Source: Syntrophobacterales bacterium GWC2_56_13
Lineage (GTDB): Bacteria; Desulfobacterota; Syntrophia; Syntrophales; UBA5619
Assembly (NCBI GenBank): GCA_001830835.1
Contig: MICJ01000066.1
Location: 7,047-43,761 of the forward strand
Reading direction: 5' to 3'
DNA length: 36,715 nucleotides
The translations under genes and the position numbers were made by a program. The notes beneath the pieces are model-generated. The model ran no database searches. It saw only the letters and a program-made list of their open reading frames with translations, and was not told the DNA's origin. Positions 271 through 28,009 of this stretch are shown here, piece by piece; the first letter of the stretch is position 1; the number at the start of each line of letters is the position of its first letter.

Positions 271-600
271 ATGCCGGAATACCTGCACCAGGAACCCGGA
301 ACGGAGGTTCGTTTCATCGCCGGCCATTACGCCATCGTTGAAGAGAGGCGGATCGCCCACCGCGGCCGGGAACTCCTTGTTGTCGTCGGTATCGCCGTCG
401 TCGGGAGCGCCTGCTGCGGCGCCCAGGGGTGCCGTTTTCTGAATGTCCCCGGTTACGTCGCGGCCTGGAAGCACCGCCTCACTGAAAACGGCCTGCCTGT
501 AAGCGAGGTCGAACCGGTCGAGGACGAGAAGGAACAGGCGGAGATCCGGCAGATCCTGGAGAGTCAATTCCCCTACTCCCAGATCCTCTTCCCGGCGTGA
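271..600 (+). CDS. Small conserved protein downstream of mnmE, function unknown
   Basis: A 109-residue protein I cannot assign to a named family. The ATG at 271 follows AGGAG (AGGAGAAAGAG) at a suitable distance. Visible features are a hydrophobic core around residues 35-50 (LLVVVGIAVVGSACCG), a Cys-Cys pair and a third Cys close by (SACCGAQGC), and an acidic C-terminal stretch (EVEPVEDEKEQAEI). The Cys cluster could bind metal or reflect a buried core, but nothing shows a function. It sits 17 bp after mnmE on the same strand and has normal regional GC. Its stop lies at the edge of the AT-rich accessory patch. Confidence 0.75.
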   Translation: MPEYLHQEPGTEVRFIAGHYAIVEERRIAHRGRELLVVVGIAVVGSACCGAQGCRFLNVPGYVAAWKHRLTENGLPVSEVEPVEDEKEQAEIRQILESQFPYSQILFPA

Positions 601-625
601 TGCTGAGACGAACCGGAATGGCTCA

Positions 626-799
626 TTATCGGGAGATCCCAAATATGTATCGCCACAGGGTAGATGGTCAACTTTTCTGAGTCGCCGGTATTACAATTAC
701 GTTCTTAAATTACTTGATGATATCGAATATGCAAATGTTGTTGGGAAATTCACATTGACAACGGCCATAGCCAAGGATAAAAAAGGCTCATCCGGTTAA
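626..799 (+). pseudogene. Possible gene remnant without a start codon
   Basis: This frame is open from inside the preceding gene to a TAA at 797-799 and reads plausibly as protein near its end (YYNYVLKLLDDIEYANVVGK). No credible start codon or ribosome-binding site precedes it. Its last codons overlap the first copy of the 22-bp dispersed repeat. It may be the tail of a gene truncated when the downstream cassette arrived. Family not recognised; chance openness is possible. Confidence 0.25.
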
Positions 800-806
800 T
801 GCGTAC
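785..806 (-). repeat. 22-bp dispersed repeat, copy 1 (inverted, two mismatches)
   Basis: On the minus strand this matches GTACGCATCAACCGGATGAA plus two further bases at 20 of 22 positions, compared with the exact copies at 3193 and 19571. Relative to the 3193 copy it is inverted, so the two bracket the AT-rich three-gene cassette. Confidence 0.7.
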
Positions 807-1316
807 TCCCTGTTTTTTTTGATTTGGGATAGTCCATATATGCTTTCAATCCGAAATTAATGAAATCACCTCATCACTGGCATTATATGTATTCACATGC
901 TCAGCAATCAAAAAGGGGTAGTATACCTTTAACTTGAGATATAGTAAGGTTATCAAAATAAAGACATTGGGCGCGTACGTAACCCATAATATAATTAACA
1001 CTTCAACGATGAAACATGATAGCATTTGACTACGAATAAGCGTCAATCCGAAGTTGTTAAAAGGAAGAATATAAATATATTCAAGGCATAGCAGACAATT
1101 TTGGATTGACGCATGAAGGACTGAGCCGCAGCGCAAGGAAGGCACACATTATATTATGGGGTTTCAATCAGGGTATTCCCCATAAATTTAGCAATGAAAT
1201 ATCAATATGAGCGGGATTGTCAATCATTATTTACCACTAATACAGGGCTCCAGATCTACCGCGCAGCGGTTTAGTTCTTCGATTTATAATCAATTAAATA
1301 ATTAGGAATAATTATC
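807..1316. other. AT-rich intergenic stretch
   Basis: About 510 bp without a credible gene. The 99-residue minus-strand ORF here has poor coding character. The 13-mer CTTTCAATCCGAA near 843 recurs in direct orientation near 3124, on the far side of the cassette. A weak promoter-like pair (TTGTCA at 1217, TAATAC at 1238, 15-bp spacer) precedes the TIGR04255 gene. Confidence 0.5.
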
Positions 1317-2066
1317 ATGGCCGAAAAATTACCGATAAAACTAAATAAAGAGCCGCTGTTAGACGCAATTTTTGAAGTGCGTTTTTCCATGATTACCCCT
1401 GCGTCTAACATTTTACCGGGGATTTTTTTTAGCAAGCTCGATGGCGAAAAATCAATTGAGCGATTGCCTGCCGCGGATCTACCCACGCAAATGCGGGATG
1501 CAGAACCTAACTTGCAGTATGCCCCAGTTATGCGAATACACTGGAAAGAATTCGTTCTTTTAATTAGCGATCGAAGCGTTGCTGTTGCTTGCAAAATGCC
1601 TTATGCCGGATGGAAAAAATTTAAAAATGCCATCATTCAGATGGTCAAGATTCTCGATGAAGTTGAGATTCTTGAAAGCATTCAGCGGTACTCTATGAAA
1701 TACATAGACTTGATCCCTATCAAGAACTTGAGTGAGCAGATTGCATCCGTTAACATCAACATCAGCTTAGGCGATCATAAATTGGAAAAAGAGATGTTCC
1801 AGTTTCGGATTGAAATTGTAGATGGTGAATTTATCAACGCCGTGCAAATTGTTTCTTCTGGAGTAGTAAGAACAAAGGACAAAACCACAAAAGAAGGCTT
1901 AATTATTGATATTGACACCATCCGCAAAGTCGATAATCTCAATATCAAGACTTTTCTTTCTGAACTTCAAGAAATATTGGAAAATATCCATGAAAAAAAC
2001 AAAGTAATGTTTTTCAAATGTATTACCCCCACTACACTCGAGTTCTTGGAGCCTATCTATGTATAA
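1317..2066 (+). CDS. TIGR04255 family protein
   Basis: A 249-residue protein with the two ends typical of the TIGR04255 family: an N-terminal LNKEPLLDAIFEVRF segment and a C-terminal TLEFLEPIYV. The family is sporadically distributed and has no agreed biochemical function; members often sit in accessory regions. The start has a modest ribosome-binding site (AGGAAT). GC is clearly lower than in the chromosome on either side, which suggests horizontal acquisition. The stop overlaps the start of the next gene by 8 bp, and a third gene follows within 12 bp, so the three probably form one operon. A role in phage defence or conflict is inferred from context only. Confidence 0.8.
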   Translation: MAEKLPIKLNKEPLLDAIFEVRFSMITPASNILPGIFFSKLDGEKSIERLPAADLPTQMRDAEPNLQYAPVMRIHWKEFVLLISDRSVAVACKMPYAGWKKFKNAIIQMVKILDEVEILESIQRYSMKYIDLIPIKNLSEQIASVNINISLGDHKLEKEMFQFRIEIVDGEFINAVQIVSSGVVRTKDKTTKEGLIIDIDTIRKVDNLNIKTFLSELQEILENIHEKNKVMFFKCITPTTLEFLEPIYV

Positions 2067-2397
2067 CTATTTCATTAATCAAGAATCTGGCACCGTTAGT
2101 TCTGTTACCTTTAGAGGTATTCTCGCTGCACAATTTTTAGCTGATCAGATGAACGTTAAGCAGGAAGACGACCAATATAGACCTCCATACATACGCGATG
2201 TCTACCATTGGTTTGCGACTCCTGCTACTTTTGATCACTTTAGGACCATCGTAATGGGAGAGTACCAGCAGGAGAGTGATCAATTTGAGGTGCATGTTGC
2301 CAAATTCTATACCAAGTTACTTGCCAGTCAAGAATCGCTAGGGGCCGAATTTGAGAAGGTTCTGCATGAGAATTTATGGAATCTTTATGAAAGCTAA
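2059..2397 (+). CDS. Middle gene of the TIGR04255 cassette, function unknown
   Basis: A 112-residue protein with no family I recognise. It starts inside the last codons of the TIGR04255 gene, which suggests translational coupling and a joint function. It has no signal peptide, membrane segment or obvious catalytic motif. It is rich in aromatic residues (YRPPYIRDVYHWF) and looks like a small helical partner protein. Low GC matches its two neighbours. The coupling is the strongest evidence that it is real. Confidence 0.7.
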   Translation: MYNYFINQESGTVSSVTFRGILAAQFLADQMNVKQEDDQYRPPYIRDVYHWFATPATFDHFRTIVMGEYQQESDQFEVHVAKFYTKLLASQESLGAEFEKVLHENLWNLYES

Positions 2398-2408
2398 TCG
2401 GGTGCCTT

Positions 2409-3011
2409 ATGGATCTCAGTATCGATGCCATACAAAATCAAATCCCCTATTACCTGACACAAAGAGACAAAGAAGCCTTGGTTAAGGAGTTAAAGAACTT
2501 TAAATCCATCACTTATTACATAAATCTACATCCTGCCGTTGCTTTGCAAGGGGACGGTTGGTCTGAGTTGGGCTTAATTAGATACGAAACAGGGGAGCGC
2601 AAGCAAGTCCGTGGAATAGTCCTTTCCAACAGCTGTGATATTGATCCAACAAATAAAATGGACATACCGGCCAAACTTTTGTTTGCTCCCATTATTAAGC
2701 TAAAGGCTTATGCAGGGCTACTTGAAAAGGCTAATATTCCAAGAGAAAAAATCTTTGGCAAGTTCAATTCCATCCGTGAGCAGCGGGTAACAACTCTCTT
2801 CTATCTCCCCAAAGGTGCAGGTCTTGAAGATGAATATATCGCCTTGCTCGATGATATTCATTCACTTCCTCTTACGGCATTCTTCGAACAGAAGAATCGG
2901 ACCAAACTATTTACACTTAGCCTTGCCGGTTTTTATCTTTTTGTACTGAAGCTATCTGTGCATTTTTGCCGTTTTAGCGAAGAAGGTGTGATTCGGACTG
3001 AGGCGATTTAA
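2409..3011 (+). CDS. Third gene of the TIGR04255 cassette, SNSCDI-motif protein
   Basis: A 200-residue protein starting 12 bp after the previous stop. The central segment RGIVLSNSCDIDPTNK resembles the conserved [ST]-x-[DS]-C-D-[IL] core found in several uncharacterised accessory proteins; I cannot name the family. The C-terminal 30-40 residues contain a hydrophobic run (LAGFYLFVLKLSVHF) that could be a membrane-associated helix or a buried strand. GC is low, as in the rest of the cassette. It may be the effector partner of the TIGR04255 protein, but that is inference. The 245 bp after it hold the second 22-bp repeat and no gene. Confidence 0.7.
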   Translation: MDLSIDAIQNQIPYYLTQRDKEALVKELKNFKSITYYINLHPAVALQGDGWSELGLIRYETGERKQVRGIVLSNSCDIDPTNKMDIPAKLLFAPIIKLKAYAGLLEKANIPREKIFGKFNSIREQRVTTLFYLPKGAGLEDEYIALLDDIHSLPLTAFFEQKNRTKLFTLSLAGFYLFVLKLSVHFCRFSEEGVIRTEAI

Positions 3012-3256: not shown

Positions 3257-4555
3257 ATGAGCCGGCATAAAATCATCGTGGCAGATTCGCGTTCCATGCT
3301 GGAAACTGCGAACGAATACGTCCATCTGATCATCACGTCACCCCCCTACTGGCAGCTCAAGGATTATGACAGCGCAAACCAGATCGGATTCAATGACACC
3401 TATGAAGACTACATCAACAATCTGAACCTGGTCTGGCAGGAATGTCACCGGGTCCTGCACGGCGGGTGTCGCCTGTGCATCAACATCGGCGACCAGTTCG
3501 CGCGGTCCGTCTATTACGGCCGGTATAAAGTCATCCCCATCCGGACCGAAATCATCAAATTCTGCGAGACGATCGGTTTTGACTACATGGGCGCGGTCAT
3601 CTGGCAGAAGGTCACGACGTGCAACACCACCGGCGGCGCCACGATCATGGGATCGTACCCGTATCCCCGAAACGGCATCATCAAGATCGATTATGAATTC
3701 ATCCTTCTCTTCAAAAAGCCGGGGGCTCCCCCTCCTGTCGGCAGGTCGGAACGGGAGCAATCCGTCCTGTCAATCGAGGAATGGAATGAGTACTTTGCCG
3801 GGCACTGGAACTTCCCCGGGGAGAAACAGGACAAGCATCTCGCCATGTTTCCGGAAGAACTGCCCAAGAGGCTGATCAAGATGTTCAGCTTCGTCGGAGA
3901 AACCGTCCTCGACCCCTTCCTGGGGAGCGGCACCACCTCGCTGGCTGCAAAGCGTCTCCAGAGGAACTCGATCGGCTACGAAATCAACGACGCTTTCCTG
4001 CCGATCATCCGGAAAAAATTGGGCGCCGAACAGGGAGACATCTTCGATAAGACCCTCATCGAGGTTGTCGAACGCAAAAGCGAGGGCGCAGATTATCGGC
4101 AGAAAATCAAAGAACTGCCGTACCTGTTTGAGGACAAAGTCAAATTCGACAAGAAGATCGATCCCCGAAAGCTGACCTTCGGCTCCAGGATCGAAGCCGG
4201 CAGCAACAACGGAAAGGAGCAATATCTTCATTTTAAGCGCGTTGTCTCCCCGAACACGGTTGAATTCAACAATGACATGATTGTCAGGCTCTTAGGCATC
4301 AAGGGCATGGAAGGGAAAGAGCCGGTGGCCATGAAATGGTTGTGGGATAAACTGAAAGGACAGAGTGTTTACCTGAAATTCGACCAGATCAAATATGACG
4401 AAAACAACCGCCTTCTTTCCTACCTGTACCTGAAAAACAACACGTTCATCAATTTCCATTTCCTACGGTCGAATCTGGTCCAGGTCGACGAGACTTTCCC
4501 GTTTCGATATCATGCCAAGTTCAAATCCGTTGTGGAAGGGGAAAACCTCTCATGA
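3257..4555 (+). CDS. DNA (cytosine-N4) methyltransferase, MjaI-type RM system
   Basis: A 432-residue modification enzyme. Motif IV (TSPPYW, residues about 28-33) precedes the AdoMet-binding motif (DPFLGSGTTSLAA, from about residue 218), the order of beta-class amino-methyltransferases. The SPPYW form favours N4-cytosine over N6-adenine. The C-terminal 170 residues probably carry target recognition. It overlaps the downstream endonuclease gene by 4 bp (ATGA). Because that neighbour is MjaI-like, and M.MjaI/R.MjaI act on CTAG, CTAG is the predicted target. The start at 3257 keeps the expected N-terminal strand (KIIVADSR) that precedes motif IV; the ribosome-binding site is weak. Confidence 0.9.
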   Translation: MSRHKIIVADSRSMLETANEYVHLIITSPPYWQLKDYDSANQIGFNDTYEDYINNLNLVWQECHRVLHGGCRLCINIGDQFARSVYYGRYKVIPIRTEIIKFCETIGFDYMGAVIWQKVTTCNTTGGATIMGSYPYPRNGIIKIDYEFILLFKKPGAPPPVGRSEREQSVLSIEEWNEYFAGHWNFPGEKQDKHLAMFPEELPKRLIKMFSFVGETVLDPFLGSGTTSLAAKRLQRNSIGYEINDAFLPIIRKKLGAEQGDIFDKTLIEVVERKSEGADYRQKIKELPYLFEDKVKFDKKIDPRKLTFGSRIEAGSNNGKEQYLHFKRVVSPNTVEFNNDMIVRLLGIKGMEGKEPVAMKWLWDKLKGQSVYLKFDQIKYDENNRLLSYLYLKNNTFINFHFLRSNLVQVDETFPFRYHAKFKSVVEGENLS

Positions 4556-5136
4556 AGAAAATCAGGATCAAGAATGAGGAAGTTACGCAACTACTTGATG
4601 CGGAAGTCGTTTCGTTTCCCAAATATGCCACCCAGTTGATCAATCTGGCGAATCAGAACGCCCAGGGCACAAGGCCGGAAGTCGTCGGGCAGATGAGCGA
4701 TCTGATTCAACAGTTCAAAGGACGAAAACTCAGGGAATGGGAGGAGTGGTATCTGAACCGGCATCCCGAGGCGATTGAGAAGGCGAAAACCAGGATCCTG
4801 CAGATGATGGAGAATCTCAAGAAGGTCATCACGTTGATCGATGCGGATATGATCGAAGCCTGGGTTCGGGACCTCGTCATTGTCAAAACGTTTGTCGGCC
4901 TCAAATTCCAGGAAGCGATTCTGAAACATATCGCCACCTCTGTTAATAAATCCTATCGATTGTCGGATCCTGAAGAAGAAGCGAGGGGAATCGATGGTTA
5001 TATCGGAGAAACGCCCATCAGCATCAAGCCGCAAAGCTATGAATCGAAACCAATGCTTCCGGAAACCATCGGCGTCCGCATCATCTACTATGAGAAGGTA
5101 AAGGACGGGATCAATCTTTATTTTGAAGAATTTTAA
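4552..5136 (+). CDS. MjaI family type II restriction endonuclease
   Basis: A 194-residue protein matching the MjaI restriction enzyme family as I know it: NLANQNAQGTRPEVVGQMS near residue 32, LREWEEWYLNRHPEA near 60, DLVIVKTFVGLKFQEAIL near 104, and GIDGYIGETPISIKP near 146. The last segment fits a PD-(D/E)xK-like core, with the Asp of GIDGY and the Lys of ISIK as candidate metal and catalytic residues. The length is normal and no truncation is seen. It overlaps the methyltransferase gene by 4 bp, so the pair is translationally coupled. The predicted target is CTAG, from family knowledge rather than from this sequence. Confidence 0.87.
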   Translation: MKKIRIKNEEVTQLLDAEVVSFPKYATQLINLANQNAQGTRPEVVGQMSDLIQQFKGRKLREWEEWYLNRHPEAIEKAKTRILQMMENLKKVITLIDADMIEAWVRDLVIVKTFVGLKFQEAILKHIATSVNKSYRLSDPEEEARGIDGYIGETPISIKPQSYESKPMLPETIGVRIIYYEKVKDGINLYFEEF

Positions 5137-6486: not shown

Positions 6487-7554
6487 TCATTTATTTTGAA
6501 GCTGTGCTTTTAGTTTTTCCTGATTTTTAATCGCCTGTGTAACTCTTGTAAGCGCCAGTGTAATATCGTCATCAGGCTTTCCGATTAATCGATCAGCCTT
6601 TTTATACAGAGGCAACGCAGCAACAACATCACCTCTGCTTTCGGCGCATACACCTAAATTATATGTAATAGATGCCGAATTAGACGCAATAGTGTCCGCC
6701 TCTCCCCATAATTCACAGGCGGCATCCAATCGGTTTTTCCCCGCATAATCAACCCCCTGTTTCAGCTTATCTTTCGCCTGAGAAGAGTCAATGCCATTAG
6801 TCGAATCCATTAATTTTATTTGGCGGACCACATAATAAGGTGCAATGTCTTTACGAAATCCAGCTTTAGCCATTTCGATTGACTGCCCGATGAGCTCACT
6901 TCCACCTTTCGGTGGGGTTCCATCTGTACATCCGGATGATGTTGCCGAACCATTAATGTCTCGTGTATAAATTATTTTTCCCGTTTGTACTTCAATTAAC
7001 TTGGGAGCGAAAGCAAAATAGCCAGATCTCTTAGTACAACTGACGTTGTATTTTCTCCACTGGAGACAATTACCCTGGTAGCAATTTCCTTTAGCATCGC
7101 ACTTCTGCGCGTACTGTGAACATTCTGATCTTTCTTCCGTATATTGCCCTTCCGTAGAATTATATTGAGTAACGGCGCCTGTATATATTCCTTGAGCGCC
7201 GATCAATTTACCCACCTCGGCCGCGGTGCTCTGATCCACCATTCCGCTTTGATTTAATTTCATTTCACCAAGGATCTTATCAATGGCATTCCTATCAACC
7301 ACGGTGAAATAATTTTTCCCGTCTATGCTTATACTGCCCAAAACGCCTTCTATTTCAGAAGTGATTTGCTGCCCTCCCTGACCGCTAAATGGCAATACCG
7401 CAACTGTTTTTGTAAGTGATGCCTGATGATATTCGGCAGGCTGGAGCATGTTGAGCACTATCTTAGTTGCGCATCCGTTAGTCAATAGTACAACGCAGAT
7501 TATAAAGATTACTTTCCCAAAAATACATGAATGCCGTAATCGAATCCTTTCCAT
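6487..7554 (-). CDS. CsgG-like outer-membrane lipoprotein with TPR-like tail
   Basis: A 355-residue protein. The N-terminus is a lipoprotein signal with lipobox LLTNGC, so the mature protein should start at Cys28 and sit in the outer membrane. TKTVAVLPFSGQGG and the following FTVVDRNAIDKILGEMKLNQSG, then AEVGKLIGAQGIYTGAVTQY, are characteristic of the CsgG/DUF799-type fold that forms or regulates secretion pores. A Cys-rich insert (residues about 143-175) interrupts the fold. The C-terminal 100 residues (YNLGVCAESRGDVVAALPLYKKAD) look like a TPR. AAGGAG precedes the start. GC is lower than in the flanking genes. No curli genes are present, so this is a CsgG-family paralogue, not curli CsgG. 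Confidence 0.78.
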   Translation of the reverse strand: MERIRLRHSCIFGKVIFIICVVLLTNGCATKIVLNMLQPAEYHQASLTKTVAVLPFSGQGGQQITSEIEGVLGSISIDGKNYFTVVDRNAIDKILGEMKLNQSGMVDQSTAAEVGKLIGAQGIYTGAVTQYNSTEGQYTEERSECSQYAQKCDAKGNCYQGNCLQWRKYNVSCTKRSGYFAFAPKLIEVQTGKIIYTRDINGSATSSGCTDGTPPKGGSELIGQSIEMAKAGFRKDIAPYYVVRQIKLMDSTNGIDSSQAKDKLKQGVDYAGKNRLDAACELWGEADTIASNSASITYNLGVCAESRGDVVAALPLYKKADRLIGKPDDDITLALTRVTQAIKNQEKLKAQLQNK

Positions 7555-7812
7555 AGCACTCTCCTTAATAAAATTGGGTTAACTTCAATTTTTCACGTTT
7601 GTAAATAGCTATATTAATTATCATTCATTAGTATTGAAGAGACTCAATCAGTGCAATATGCAATAGCTAAAATAAAAAAATGGTCCTTTCATGTCATCGT
7701 CCGCTTTTCATAATTCTTGATAAGAAAGCGCTTTGGCGTCAATTGAGGATACGGAAAGGAATTTTGTATGTCAAGGAGATTTTATCACAACCAGTTGTGT
7801 CGGAATAGGATT

Positions 7813-8271
7813 TTATTCCGGTTGTGCGGACATGGTAGCGGAGAGATGGATGAATCCGATCTGCCGGAGCAGTTTCAATGTGGTTTTCGTTGCCGGGAGA
7901 TCCCCGATCTCCTCCGGCGCGACCCAGCGGGCTTCGAGGGCGTCATCACCCCCCCTTACCTCGCCGCTCACGTAATCCGCCGCCAGATCGACAATCACGT
8001 AATGGAAACGGATGCGGCCGTCTCCGTCCCACTCGCAGACATCACAGGTAAATACCGGATCCCCGGCGCGGATGGTAATCCCGGTTTCCTCCAAGATCTC
8101 CCGTTCCGCCCCTTCTTTCAGGCTCTCTCCCAGTTCGAGCGCCCCGCCGGGGATCGCCCAGAGGCCCAGGGCAGGCGGAACGCCGCGCCGGACGAGAAGG
8201 ATACGGCCTTCCCGCAGGACGACCGCCCCCACGCCTACCCGTGGGCTGTCCGGATATTCACTGCGCGCCAT
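7813..8271 (-). CDS. NUDIX hydrolase
   Basis: A pyrophosphohydrolase acting on a nucleoside-diphosphate-linked substrate that cannot be named from sequence. The full Nudix box is present (GGALELGESLKEGAEREILEETGI, about residues 40-63), including the REIxEE metal-binding core. The ORF track starts at 8322, but the ATG at 8271 has AAGGAG seven bases upstream and gives a 152-residue protein with the usual short N-terminus (MARSEYPDSPRVGVGAVVL), so I prefer it. It lies downstream of the NRDE gene on the same strand, with a 103-bp gap. Confidence 0.9.
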   Translation of the reverse strand: MARSEYPDSPRVGVGAVVLREGRILLVRRGVPPALGLWAIPGGALELGESLKEGAEREILEETGITIRAGDPVFTCDVCEWDGDGRIRFHYVIVDLAADYVSGEVRGGDDALEARWVAPEEIGDLPATKTTLKLLRQIGFIHLSATMSAQPE

Positions 8272-25239: not shown

Positions 25240-26139
25240 TCAAGTCGCGATCTCCTCTTCCTCCGCCATTTCTCTCAGCCGCCGTTCCGCCTGTCGTTTC
25301 TTCCGCATGTACCCGTAGATGAAGATCAGCGCCGCAATAAACCAGAGCGTGGAGACGCTGGTGATGATCGGTATCCAGGAGACGCGGAGCTTGAGATAGA
25401 CCAGCCACCGCTCCTCCAGATTGGCGAGGGTCATCCCCGTCCCCCGCCGGAGCGCCCCCTCCAGGTCCCCATAGCGGGTATAATCCCGGATCAGGCGGTG
25501 AAAGGCCTCCCGGCCGACCTTGTTGATCATAAAGGAGATGAACATGAAGCTTTCCGCATAGGCCAGTTCGGCCGGCTCCACATCCGCCGGAAAGGAGAGG
25601 GTGAGAACGGGCAACGGAATCAAGCTGTCCATCAGCGAGGCCCTCGTCAGGACGGCGATCCGGGAGAAGGTCCACTCCCGGGCCTCGTAAATAGCGAGCC
25701 CTTCGTTGAGCCAGACCGGGACTTTCACGCCCGTCAAGGCCCTCCCCAGGGCAATATGGCTAAATTCATGGGCGAAGACATCAATCACGTCGATGCGACT
25801 CCCTTTGACTGCCCGCGGCGAGCAAAGGACGATCACATTCTCCCCGGGATAGGCCACACCGACCGCCCAGAGTGGAACCCAGGTCCTTCCGGGCTGGGCC
25901 GCCCGGAACGCTTCGAGGGTGGGGGCGATACGGATCTCCGTCTTTCCGGGAAAATCGACACCGATGTCGGCGATGATCCGCACCCGGATGCCGGGCGATT
26001 CCCGGCCAAGTTCCGAAGCGATCCGCTCGTCACCAGACGCATAGCGAATGATGAAATGGTCGTTTTCCATCCGCAGGTCACCCGCGCCGGCGGTTGTCGC
26101 GGGCAGGAAAATGAGCAGAAAAAAGATGATCGCCGGCAT
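25240..26139 (-). CDS. Membrane-anchored peptidase MA family metallopeptidase
   Basis: A 299-residue exported zinc peptidase. A signal peptide (MPAIIFFLLIFLPATTAGA) is followed by a gluzincin-like domain. The zinc motif is HEFSH (about residues 123-127), and WLNEGLAIYEA, about 20 residues later, supplies the third ligand. A single C-terminal helix (IPIITSVSTLWFIAALIFIYGYM) anchors it in the inner membrane, leaving a basic and acidic cytoplasmic tail. The catalytic domain should therefore face the periplasm. The substrate is unknown. It is upstream of, and probably co-transcribed with, the Cys-rich small protein. Confidence 0.87.
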   Translation of the reverse strand: MPAIIFFLLIFLPATTAGAGDLRMENDHFIIRYASGDERIASELGRESPGIRVRIIADIGVDFPGKTEIRIAPTLEAFRAAQPGRTWVPLWAVGVAYPGENVIVLCSPRAVKGSRIDVIDVFAHEFSHIALGRALTGVKVPVWLNEGLAIYEAREWTFSRIAVLTRASLMDSLIPLPVLTLSFPADVEPAELAYAESFMFISFMINKVGREAFHRLIRDYTRYGDLEGALRRGTGMTLANLEERWLVYLKLRVSWIPIITSVSTLWFIAALIFIYGYMRKKRQAERRLREMAEEEEIAT

Positions 26140-26536: not shown

Positions 26537-27247
26537 TTAAGAAACTGCGTAACGGGAACGCAAGCCAGCACGCGCAAAGCCGGGAGGGCGCCAGTGAACC
26601 ATAAACTGGGCGCTGAACCAGTTGACGCCCGGCACAGGGCCAAAACTACAGCGCGAACCCGCGCAGAGCGTCCAATTTTTAATGTCCAGATGTCTGTTGG
26701 TTTCCTTAAAAAATTTGAGCTCAAATATCTCCCGCTCTTCCAAGGTAATGCCCGGAATATTTTGCTGTTTCAGATGATTAGCTGAAAGATTTTTCAGTTC
26801 TTCATCGGCTTCCACGCAGTTACGGACACGGATAGCGTATGAACCGTCTTTCGCCGTTCTGTCCGATGTCACAATCTTGTCCAAGTCATCATCCGTGCAT
26901 TTCCAACACGGAAAATTCTTGGCGCAAAGGTCGTAGGCCGATTGTGGAGTGATGCCTTTGGCCATAACGATAACCTGGTTGAATCCGCCCGGGTCATCGG
27001 GGATAATGACGTCCGACAAACCGCAGTCAATGCCAAGGTTCCGATAAAACGCCTCCCAATCGGCGAGCAAAGGCGAATAGTCGACGGCGGGCACAACCAT
27101 CATTCGCTTGTTTTCAATCAACAGCTGCAATCCGTCCAGCGTTTGTTCCGGTTCAAGGATGTTTTTCCGCCAGCAGTTTTCCAGTTCCCATAATCTGTCA
27201 TGGAACTTCTTTACCTGTTCGTCGGCAACAACATATTTTTTCTTCAT
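26537..27247 (-). CDS. Uncharacterised protein with DGR-target-like C-terminus
   Basis: A 236-residue protein of a family I have met as unannotated proteins in metagenome-assembled genomes. N-terminal KFHDRLWELENCWRKNILEPEQ, central FNQVIVMAKGITPQSAYDLC and FPCWK, then SDRTAKDGSYAIRVRNCVEADEELKNLS and HLDIKNWTLC. The last 45 residues (SRCSFGPVPGVNW, then MVHW, then LRSRYAVS) look like the variable face of a C-type-lectin fold. In that stretch most codons end in C or T, as expected if an AAY-rich template had been mutated at adenines. No reverse transcriptase or template repeat is in the window. AGGTATTTGTC-like leader, weak ribosome-binding site (GGGAGG about nine bases upstream). Confidence 0.72.
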   Translation of the reverse strand: MKKKYVVADEQVKKFHDRLWELENCWRKNILEPEQTLDGLQLLIENKRMMVVPAVDYSPLLADWEAFYRNLGIDCGLSDVIIPDDPGGFNQVIVMAKGITPQSAYDLCAKNFPCWKCTDDDLDKIVTSDRTAKDGSYAIRVRNCVEADEELKNLSANHLKQQNIPGITLEEREIFELKFFKETNRHLDIKNWTLCAGSRCSFGPVPGVNWFSAQFMVHWRPPGFARAGLRSRYAVS

Positions 27248-27335
27248 GACAAATACCTCCCTTTCCTAAAAACTTTTTAAAGATCCAACGGGCGCTCTAT
27301 TTGGCGCATAATTGCAACCTAAAAGCTATAATATA

Positions 27336-27365
27336 AGTATGGCACGATAAAGTATTATATGTCAA
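27336..27365 (-). promoter_or_regulatory. Promoter upstream of the DGR-like gene
   Basis: On the minus strand, TTGACA (27365-27360), an 18-bp spacer and CATACT (27341-27336), followed by an AT-rich stretch. It lies about 90 bp upstream of the start codon at 27247 and indicates that the gene has its own transcript. Confidence 0.5.
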
Positions 27366-27394
27366 GATTCACTACATTTGTAGCATGTGTCTGA

Positions 27395-27514
27395 ATGAAA
27401 CGTTTTCTCGACGCGGCGATCGCCCAAGGCATGACCGATACCGACTTTTCGCGTCTCTACGAGCGCTTCGACGAGATCGTCGCGACAGTCGGCAATACCG
27501 AATCGTCAGGTTAA
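27395..27514 (+). pseudogene. Short remnant, possibly the tail of a dehydrogenase
   Basis: A 39-codon frame (MKRFLDAAIAQGMTDTDFSR, then LYERFDEIV) that looks like the C-terminal helix of a 3-hydroxyisobutyrate-dehydrogenase-type enzyme (AAIAxGxGDxDFS). The ATG has no clear ribosome-binding site. Its stop overlaps the end of the convergent gene by 9 bp. Remnant status is inferred from size. Confidence 0.35.
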
Positions 27515-28009
27515 ATCATACTTTTCGGTCACATCCAGTCTGCGGACCAGCCGTTTGTGCTCCTCCGGCGTGATCCACGACACGCGGAGATAATTGGCGA
27601 TGGCCTCATCTTTCAAACCGATTCGGCGGGCCTCCTGTACGGTTACCTGGTAAGCCTCGATTTCTGTCTCCCGATCTACATAAGCCTTGCTCCTGTCGTA
27701 AAGATTCCGTCCCTGCAGGTGCTGTTTGACATGGCACAGCTCGTGAATGATATCCAGATACAGGAATTCGTCCGAGGCTTCACGCAGATGCGTCAGGCCG
27801 ATGGTGATGGAACCGTCGTCGTTATCTACGAACATCTCACTGCGCCGGTCCACCACAAACACCTTGGTGTGCGCCATGACCCCATCGATCTCTTCCGCGT
27901 CGGCAAAGATGGCGGGCAGAATGCCATAGGTTCGGATATCCCAAAATAGTTCCACCAGACGGTACTGTCCGGGTTCAACCCGGCGATGGATGCGAAAAAT
28001 ATTTTTCAT
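27506..28009 (-). CDS. HExxH-motif protein, probable metallopeptidase
   Basis: A 167-residue protein with LDIIHELCHVKQH (residues about 89-101), a clear HExxH zinc motif. DRETEIEAYQVTVQEARRIG, some 20 residues later, has acidic positions suitable for a third ligand. It resembles small zinc-dependent proteins of the ImmA/SprT kind in layout only; no named family is certain. No signal peptide, so it is cytoplasmic. It overlaps the preceding small ORF by 4 bp (ATGA). It belongs to an accessory stretch rich in gene scraps. Confidence 0.75.
   Translation of the reverse strand: MKNIFRIHRRVEPGQYRLVELFWDIRTYGILPAIFADAEEIDGVMAHTKVFVVDRRSEMFVDNDDGSITIGLTHLREASDEFLYLDIIHELCHVKQHLQGRNLYDRSKAYVDRETEIEAYQVTVQEARRIGLKDEAIANYLRVSWITPEEHKRLVRRLDVTEKYDLT

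Follow-up and report, generated by a model that had tools for sequence, protein, structure and literature searches.

The gene at positions 26537-27247 of the minus strand is predicted to encode a target of a diversity-generating retroelement (DGR), since some of its relatives are encoded next to template repeats (TRs) and DGR reverse transcriptases (RTs), and the differences between the relatives' variable regions (VRs) and TRs are almost confined to template adenines. We consider it likely that this protein, P0001, is an orphan variable protein of the Patescibacteria type, horizontally acquired without an RT or a TR, whose VR was diversified in the donor or in a recent ancestor and is now probably fixed. 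According to these sequence data, P0001 is a real DGR-type target, familiar in kind but unusual in its location, and the reading that involves a remote cassette is unsupported by the assembly.

The Gene and Its Variable Region

The window, i.e., the whole stretch of DNA analyzed, is 36,715 nucleotides long and belongs to assembly G000. The gene can be divided as follows:

26537-27247 (minus strand): probable orphan DGR-type variable protein P0001; intact ORF, from a family of Patescibacteria and phage DGR targets
26660-27247 (minus strand): conserved body of the target protein (VEADEELKNLSA, GITLEER, HLDIKNWTLCAG), from the protein alignment of 39 members
26552-26659 (minus strand): putative VR, from GSR to LRSR, with variable codons at 26564-26650; it aligns without gaps to Patescibacteria DGR template repeats, its differences are concentrated at template A, and it is adenine-poor and NNY-rich
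26541-26563 (minus strand): conserved 3' end, TTGCGTTCCCGTTACGCAGTTTC, at the IMH position of a VR; the same nucleotide pattern occurs in the VR/TR of relatives

The earlier note, which regarded the gene as a possible remote DGR target, had placed it correctly: the coordinates correspond exactly to an ATG-initiated ORF of 236 codons, whose product terminates in GSRCSFGPVPGVNWFSAQFMVHWRPPGFARAGLRSRYAVS before the stop. The C-terminal part of P0001 is built on the scaffold GSR..G.VP.V.W....V.W..P..A...LRSR.AVS.

Between GSR and LRSR, 22 out of 29 codons end in C or T (76%; the body has 52%, P=0.005 by resampling), in agreement with the previous remark that the codons of the tail mostly do so. 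The same 29 codons contain seven adenines, whereas segments of 29 codons in the body have an average of 24 and a minimum of 10 (P about 1e-5). Only one of the 7,259 segments of the same length in the 21 other genes of the window equals these extremes in both measures; the observation is thus real and unlikely to be due to chance. Considering all 36 codons from GSR to LRSR, none ends in A (vs. 37 out of 196 in the body), 75% end in C or T, and the adenine content is 6%, a composition that fits an NNY design derived from AAY codons, with no A at the third codon position.

Searches of Pfam, NCBIfam, PADLOC, and PDB did not retrieve any match to P0001 (236 aa), and the one obtained from PHROGs is insignificant. 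Its AlphaFold model (mean pLDDT 92) consists of helices followed by short strands that run through the VR. Probing PDB and BFVD with this model (Foldseek) did not retrieve any match at E<1, and a profile search of PDB with P0001 retrieved nothing significant. The tail had been described as C-type-lectin-like; its spacing is indeed a real motif of the family, but the fold was not confirmed by structural comparison (Foldseek and PDB profiles), and the lectin assignment is unproven because no solved or viral structure matched the confident model.

The Protein Family and Its DGR Anatomy

Scanning genome and viral collections with the single P0001 sequence did not retrieve any family member; the family was reached only by alignment queries, via three relatives that a sensitive search had retrieved from 197 related genomes. 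The alignment queries yielded 40 loci from the genome collection, most of them under titles of Patescibacteria lineages and some only under "bacterium", and six loci in viral contigs (L011, L052-L056); some 35 bacterial targets and several phage targets count as homologues of P0001. Nearly all members combine a body of conserved sequence (VEADEELKNLSA, GITLLER, HLD..N.TLC.GSR) with a tail that is hypervariable but built on a constant scaffold. The overall identity between P0001 and the family members in the alignment is 33-52%, with E146, D148, E149, HLD, GSR, and R.R being invariant. The closest relative is L012, from a Portnoybacteria MAG (58% identity, tblastn); in the tree built on the body only, P0001 groups with L012 and L013 (Patescibacteria) with values of 92/82, just below the strong-support mark of the tool.

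A template repeat was found for ten bacterial loci of the family, with 12-33 mismatches between VR and TR, 0-5 of which fall at non-A template positions. ORFs harboring YCDD and the RT motif in its DGR version, LGN[VI]TSQ (e.g., LGNVTSQ), lie beside these cassettes. The Portnoybacteria genome of L012 also has DGR RTs, but the sequence around them does not match the VR of L012. Template-like sequences were observed upstream of two of these several RTs (L130 and L131) and are of another type; thus, the family target of L012 seems to be an orphan too.

Regarding the viral contigs, four records (L052, L053, L054, and L056) embed DGR-type targets of the family, with no RT found in these four. The target of L056 is located at 7027-7836 of a 38.6-kb contig, and the 3' end of its VR is common to the TR and VR of the bacterial locus L021; the target of L054 (1-495) is upstream of terminase-, portal-, and capsid-like genes.

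Comparison of the Variable Region with the Templates of Relatives

A template for the VR itself was not found in the assembly. The comparison was carried out with the templates of relatives: five Patescibacteria templates were compared directly with the VR, without gaps, and that of L017 was added later. At codon positions 1 and 2, the VR differs from the L027 TR at 29 out of 32 template adenines and at 7 out of 40 other bases (P=4e-10); the corresponding values are 24 out of 29 vs. 11 out of 43 for the L021 TR and 19 out of 24 vs. 9 out of 48 for the L017 TR. As a control, L006, a homologue that does not look like a DGR target, was compared with the L027 TR; it differs at 20 out of 32 template adenines and at 7 out of 40 other positions, and this weaker contrast implies that part of the difference between A and non-A positions comes from the location of the variable residues.

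The pattern at the 3' end is common to both the VR and the TR of L021 and to the VRs of L010/L056 and L040. Among the 197 related genomes, the exact pattern was found only in G000, where it occurs once, in the VR itself. No erosion was seen in the VR or in the 3' end of P0001, which would also fit an ongoing diversification.

Search for the DGR Machinery

The assembly G000 consists of 119 contigs (2.6 Mb) and is 90.8% complete. It harbors only two RTs, both of the group-II-intron type (motifs QGSPLSP and QGGVISP), which score 90 and 82 bits on the DGR-RT profile, vs. 223-276 bits for the intact DGR RTs of related genomes. On the basis of these motifs and low scores, and with no RT of the [IVL]GxxxSQ type, they were rejected as DGR RTs. 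Degenerate template patterns, allowing for any template A and up to three mismatches, matched only the VR itself in G000, and neither a template repeat nor a paralogue of P0001 was found there. The absence of an RT and of a template repeat from the window, reported previously, was thus borne out; the whole-genome search that had been proposed for a DGR RT and a near-copy template retrieved neither from the assembly. Hence, of the suggestion that this is a remote DGR target, the target status stands, resting on relatives with TRs, DGR RTs, and adenine-directed differences, while a cassette located elsewhere in the genome finds no support in the 90.8% that the assembly covers.

These searches were capable of success: with this profile, DGRs were detected in roughly twelve related genomes, among them G014, of the same family, and their TR/VR pairs could be retrieved, while the 3'-end pattern located the TR as well as the VR of L021. 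Clear adenine-biased TR/VR pairs, with several template types, were observed at 12 out of 14 DGR-RT loci of the related genomes (L088, L090-L098, L100, and L101). These DGRs were considered as possible servers of the VR and were rejected, their template repeats being of other types.

A different scenario is that of a live target, the VR of which is still diversified in trans by an RT and a TR that would be encoded in the unassembled 9% of the genome or carried by a phage or plasmid residing in the cell. We judge this to be improbable, although it is the best of the alternatives. The remote variable proteins of cyanobacteria represent a precedent (PMC7517822), the matching TR and RT in the Patescibacterium of L019 are ~19 kb away from the target, and the VR and the 3' end of P0001 are uneroded; a cassette may lie in the ~9% of the genome that is missing, and DGRs are carried by related genomes, one of which is of the same family. 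However, 90.8% of the genome yielded no RT, TR, or paralogue, and the templates of the related DGRs are of unrelated types.

Homologues in the Same Order

A homologue with an almost fixed C-terminus (GSRYLCGDLPRVRWDG..FF.HWF.TD.A) is present in three further genomes of the order (L006/L032, L007, and L008). The VR of L006 has eight A-ending codons and an eroded codon signature, and most of the body of L007 is deleted. From their sequences, these loci look like domesticated or decaying targets; the nearly fixed C-terminus and the A-ending codons of L006 suggest that the domestication of family targets does occur.

P0001 itself might, in principle, be an ordinary domesticated protein of the family, whose C-terminus changes by normal substitution and whose DGR appearance reflects ancestry only. 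The presence of such homologues in the same order speaks for this possibility, which is nevertheless very improbable, the VR having no A-ending codons and 6% adenine, like the VRs with live templates and unlike that of L006. Its shortage of adenine and the absence of A from third codon positions set the VR of P0001 apart from that of the domesticated L006 and group it with the VRs that have an adjacent template. P0001 and the homologues of the order are alike in belonging to the same family outside Patescibacteria, with no matching cassette seen nearby; they differ in the tail, nearly fixed in the latter, in the codon signature, and, for L007, in the loss of most of the body.

Genomic Setting

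The neighborhood of the gene includes the following features:

27248-27394 (no strand): AT-rich upstream region (35% GC, from GC by segment), presumed to have arrived with the gene
25240-26139 (minus strand): flanking genus-native gene, Peptidase_MA_2 (Pfam), with a 78% DNA match in G005, of the same genus
27506-28009 (minus strand): flanking genus-native gene with no Pfam family; DNA matches of 74-77% in G001, G002, and G003 (same genus) and a weak PADLOC match to PD-Lambda-2_B (E=5e-5)

The GC content is 47% in the gene body and 35% in the upstream region, vs. 61-63% and 53-54% in the left and right flanks, respectively. On either side, the flanking sequence has matches in further genomes of the genus, and the proteins encoded there are ordinary chromosomal ones. 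Outside the genome of the window, the family was not found in any of 394 other genomes drawn from the phylum, and it is present in 3 out of 196 other related genomes, i.e., the three genomes of the order mentioned above. A syntenic empty site was not recovered in the genus, where the flanking genes are present but not joined on one contig. An assembly or binning artefact, in which a Patescibacteria fragment would have been fused to a Deltaproteobacteria contig, might be suspected, since the closest relatives of P0001 are Patescibacteria, but it is hardly credible, given that both flanks lie within one 43.8-kb contig, have counterparts in further genomes of the genus, and code for ordinary chromosomal functions, and that the order has homologues in three more genomes.

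A short open stretch at 27395-27517 (plus strand), 81 bases of which have an 89% match in G002, resembles a leftover gene fragment beside an acquired segment. At 3257-5136 (plus strand), the window also harbors a methyltransferase and a restriction enzyme that form a type II restriction-modification pair (PADLOC), beside an AT-rich stretch (about 500-3000).

Possible Origin of P0001

P0001 looks horizontally acquired and once diversified, since it stands alone on an unrelated, Deltaproteobacteria-type chromosome, and no machinery was found in that genome. In the orphan scenario that we favor, an AAY-rich template RNA would have been reverse transcribed with random bases placed opposite A, and the resulting cDNA would then have replaced the VR (adenine-directed mutagenic retrohoming). 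This diversification may have occurred in the donor, either a Patescibacterium or a phage with a member of this family, or else in a recent ancestor, before the arrival of the gene or soon after it. The target gene would have moved horizontally from Patescibacteria without its cassette, perhaps on phages holding such targets (L011 and L052-L056). Since the gene would have arrived without RT or template, the present VR is probably fixed and may represent a snapshot of one diversified binding surface, which would assign a ligand-binding role to P0001.

More tentatively, DGR variable proteins might travel between phyla as single-gene cargo without machinery, possibly on RT-less phages; the recipient would either fix a ready-diversified binding domain or have it re-diversified in trans by the cassette of a partner (e.g., an associated Patescibacterium or a phage). 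We consider this generalization rather doubtful at present. The case of P0001 suggests that a DGR target can be recognized from nothing more than its family and its codon signature, and that such a target may reside in another phylum without a cassette. If such orphans were common, the reach of DGR-made diversity would exceed that implied by RT counts, and Patescibacteria and their neighbors may trade diversified binding proteins.

Comparison with Known Systems

DGR clade 2 of Roux et al. (2021; PMC8144416) is restricted to Patescibacteria (CPR), and its targets lack recognizable transmembrane or other domains; the survey finds targets beside RTs, and remote targets, by its own statement, escape it. 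Likened by features, P0001 resembles these CPR variable proteins in its C-terminal VR, in the same template geometry, and in the lack of a recognizable transmembrane or other domain; it differs from them in being alone in a non-CPR host, with no RT or TR in the assembly.

A second comparison concerns the remote variable proteins of cyanobacterial DGRs (PMC7517822). Like these, P0001 is encoded by a VR-containing gene far from any RT, with a 3'-terminal VR and a conserved 3' end; unlike P0001, for which neither was found, they share the genome with their cognate RT and TR.

Lastly, the DGRs of the order and the phylum (L088, L090-L098, L100, and L101) show that adenine-biased TR/VR pairs and DGR RTs exist in related genomes, one of them in the same family; these systems, which do not occur in G000, differ from P0001 in having other template and target types, mostly GGSWNN...NRN...GFRL.
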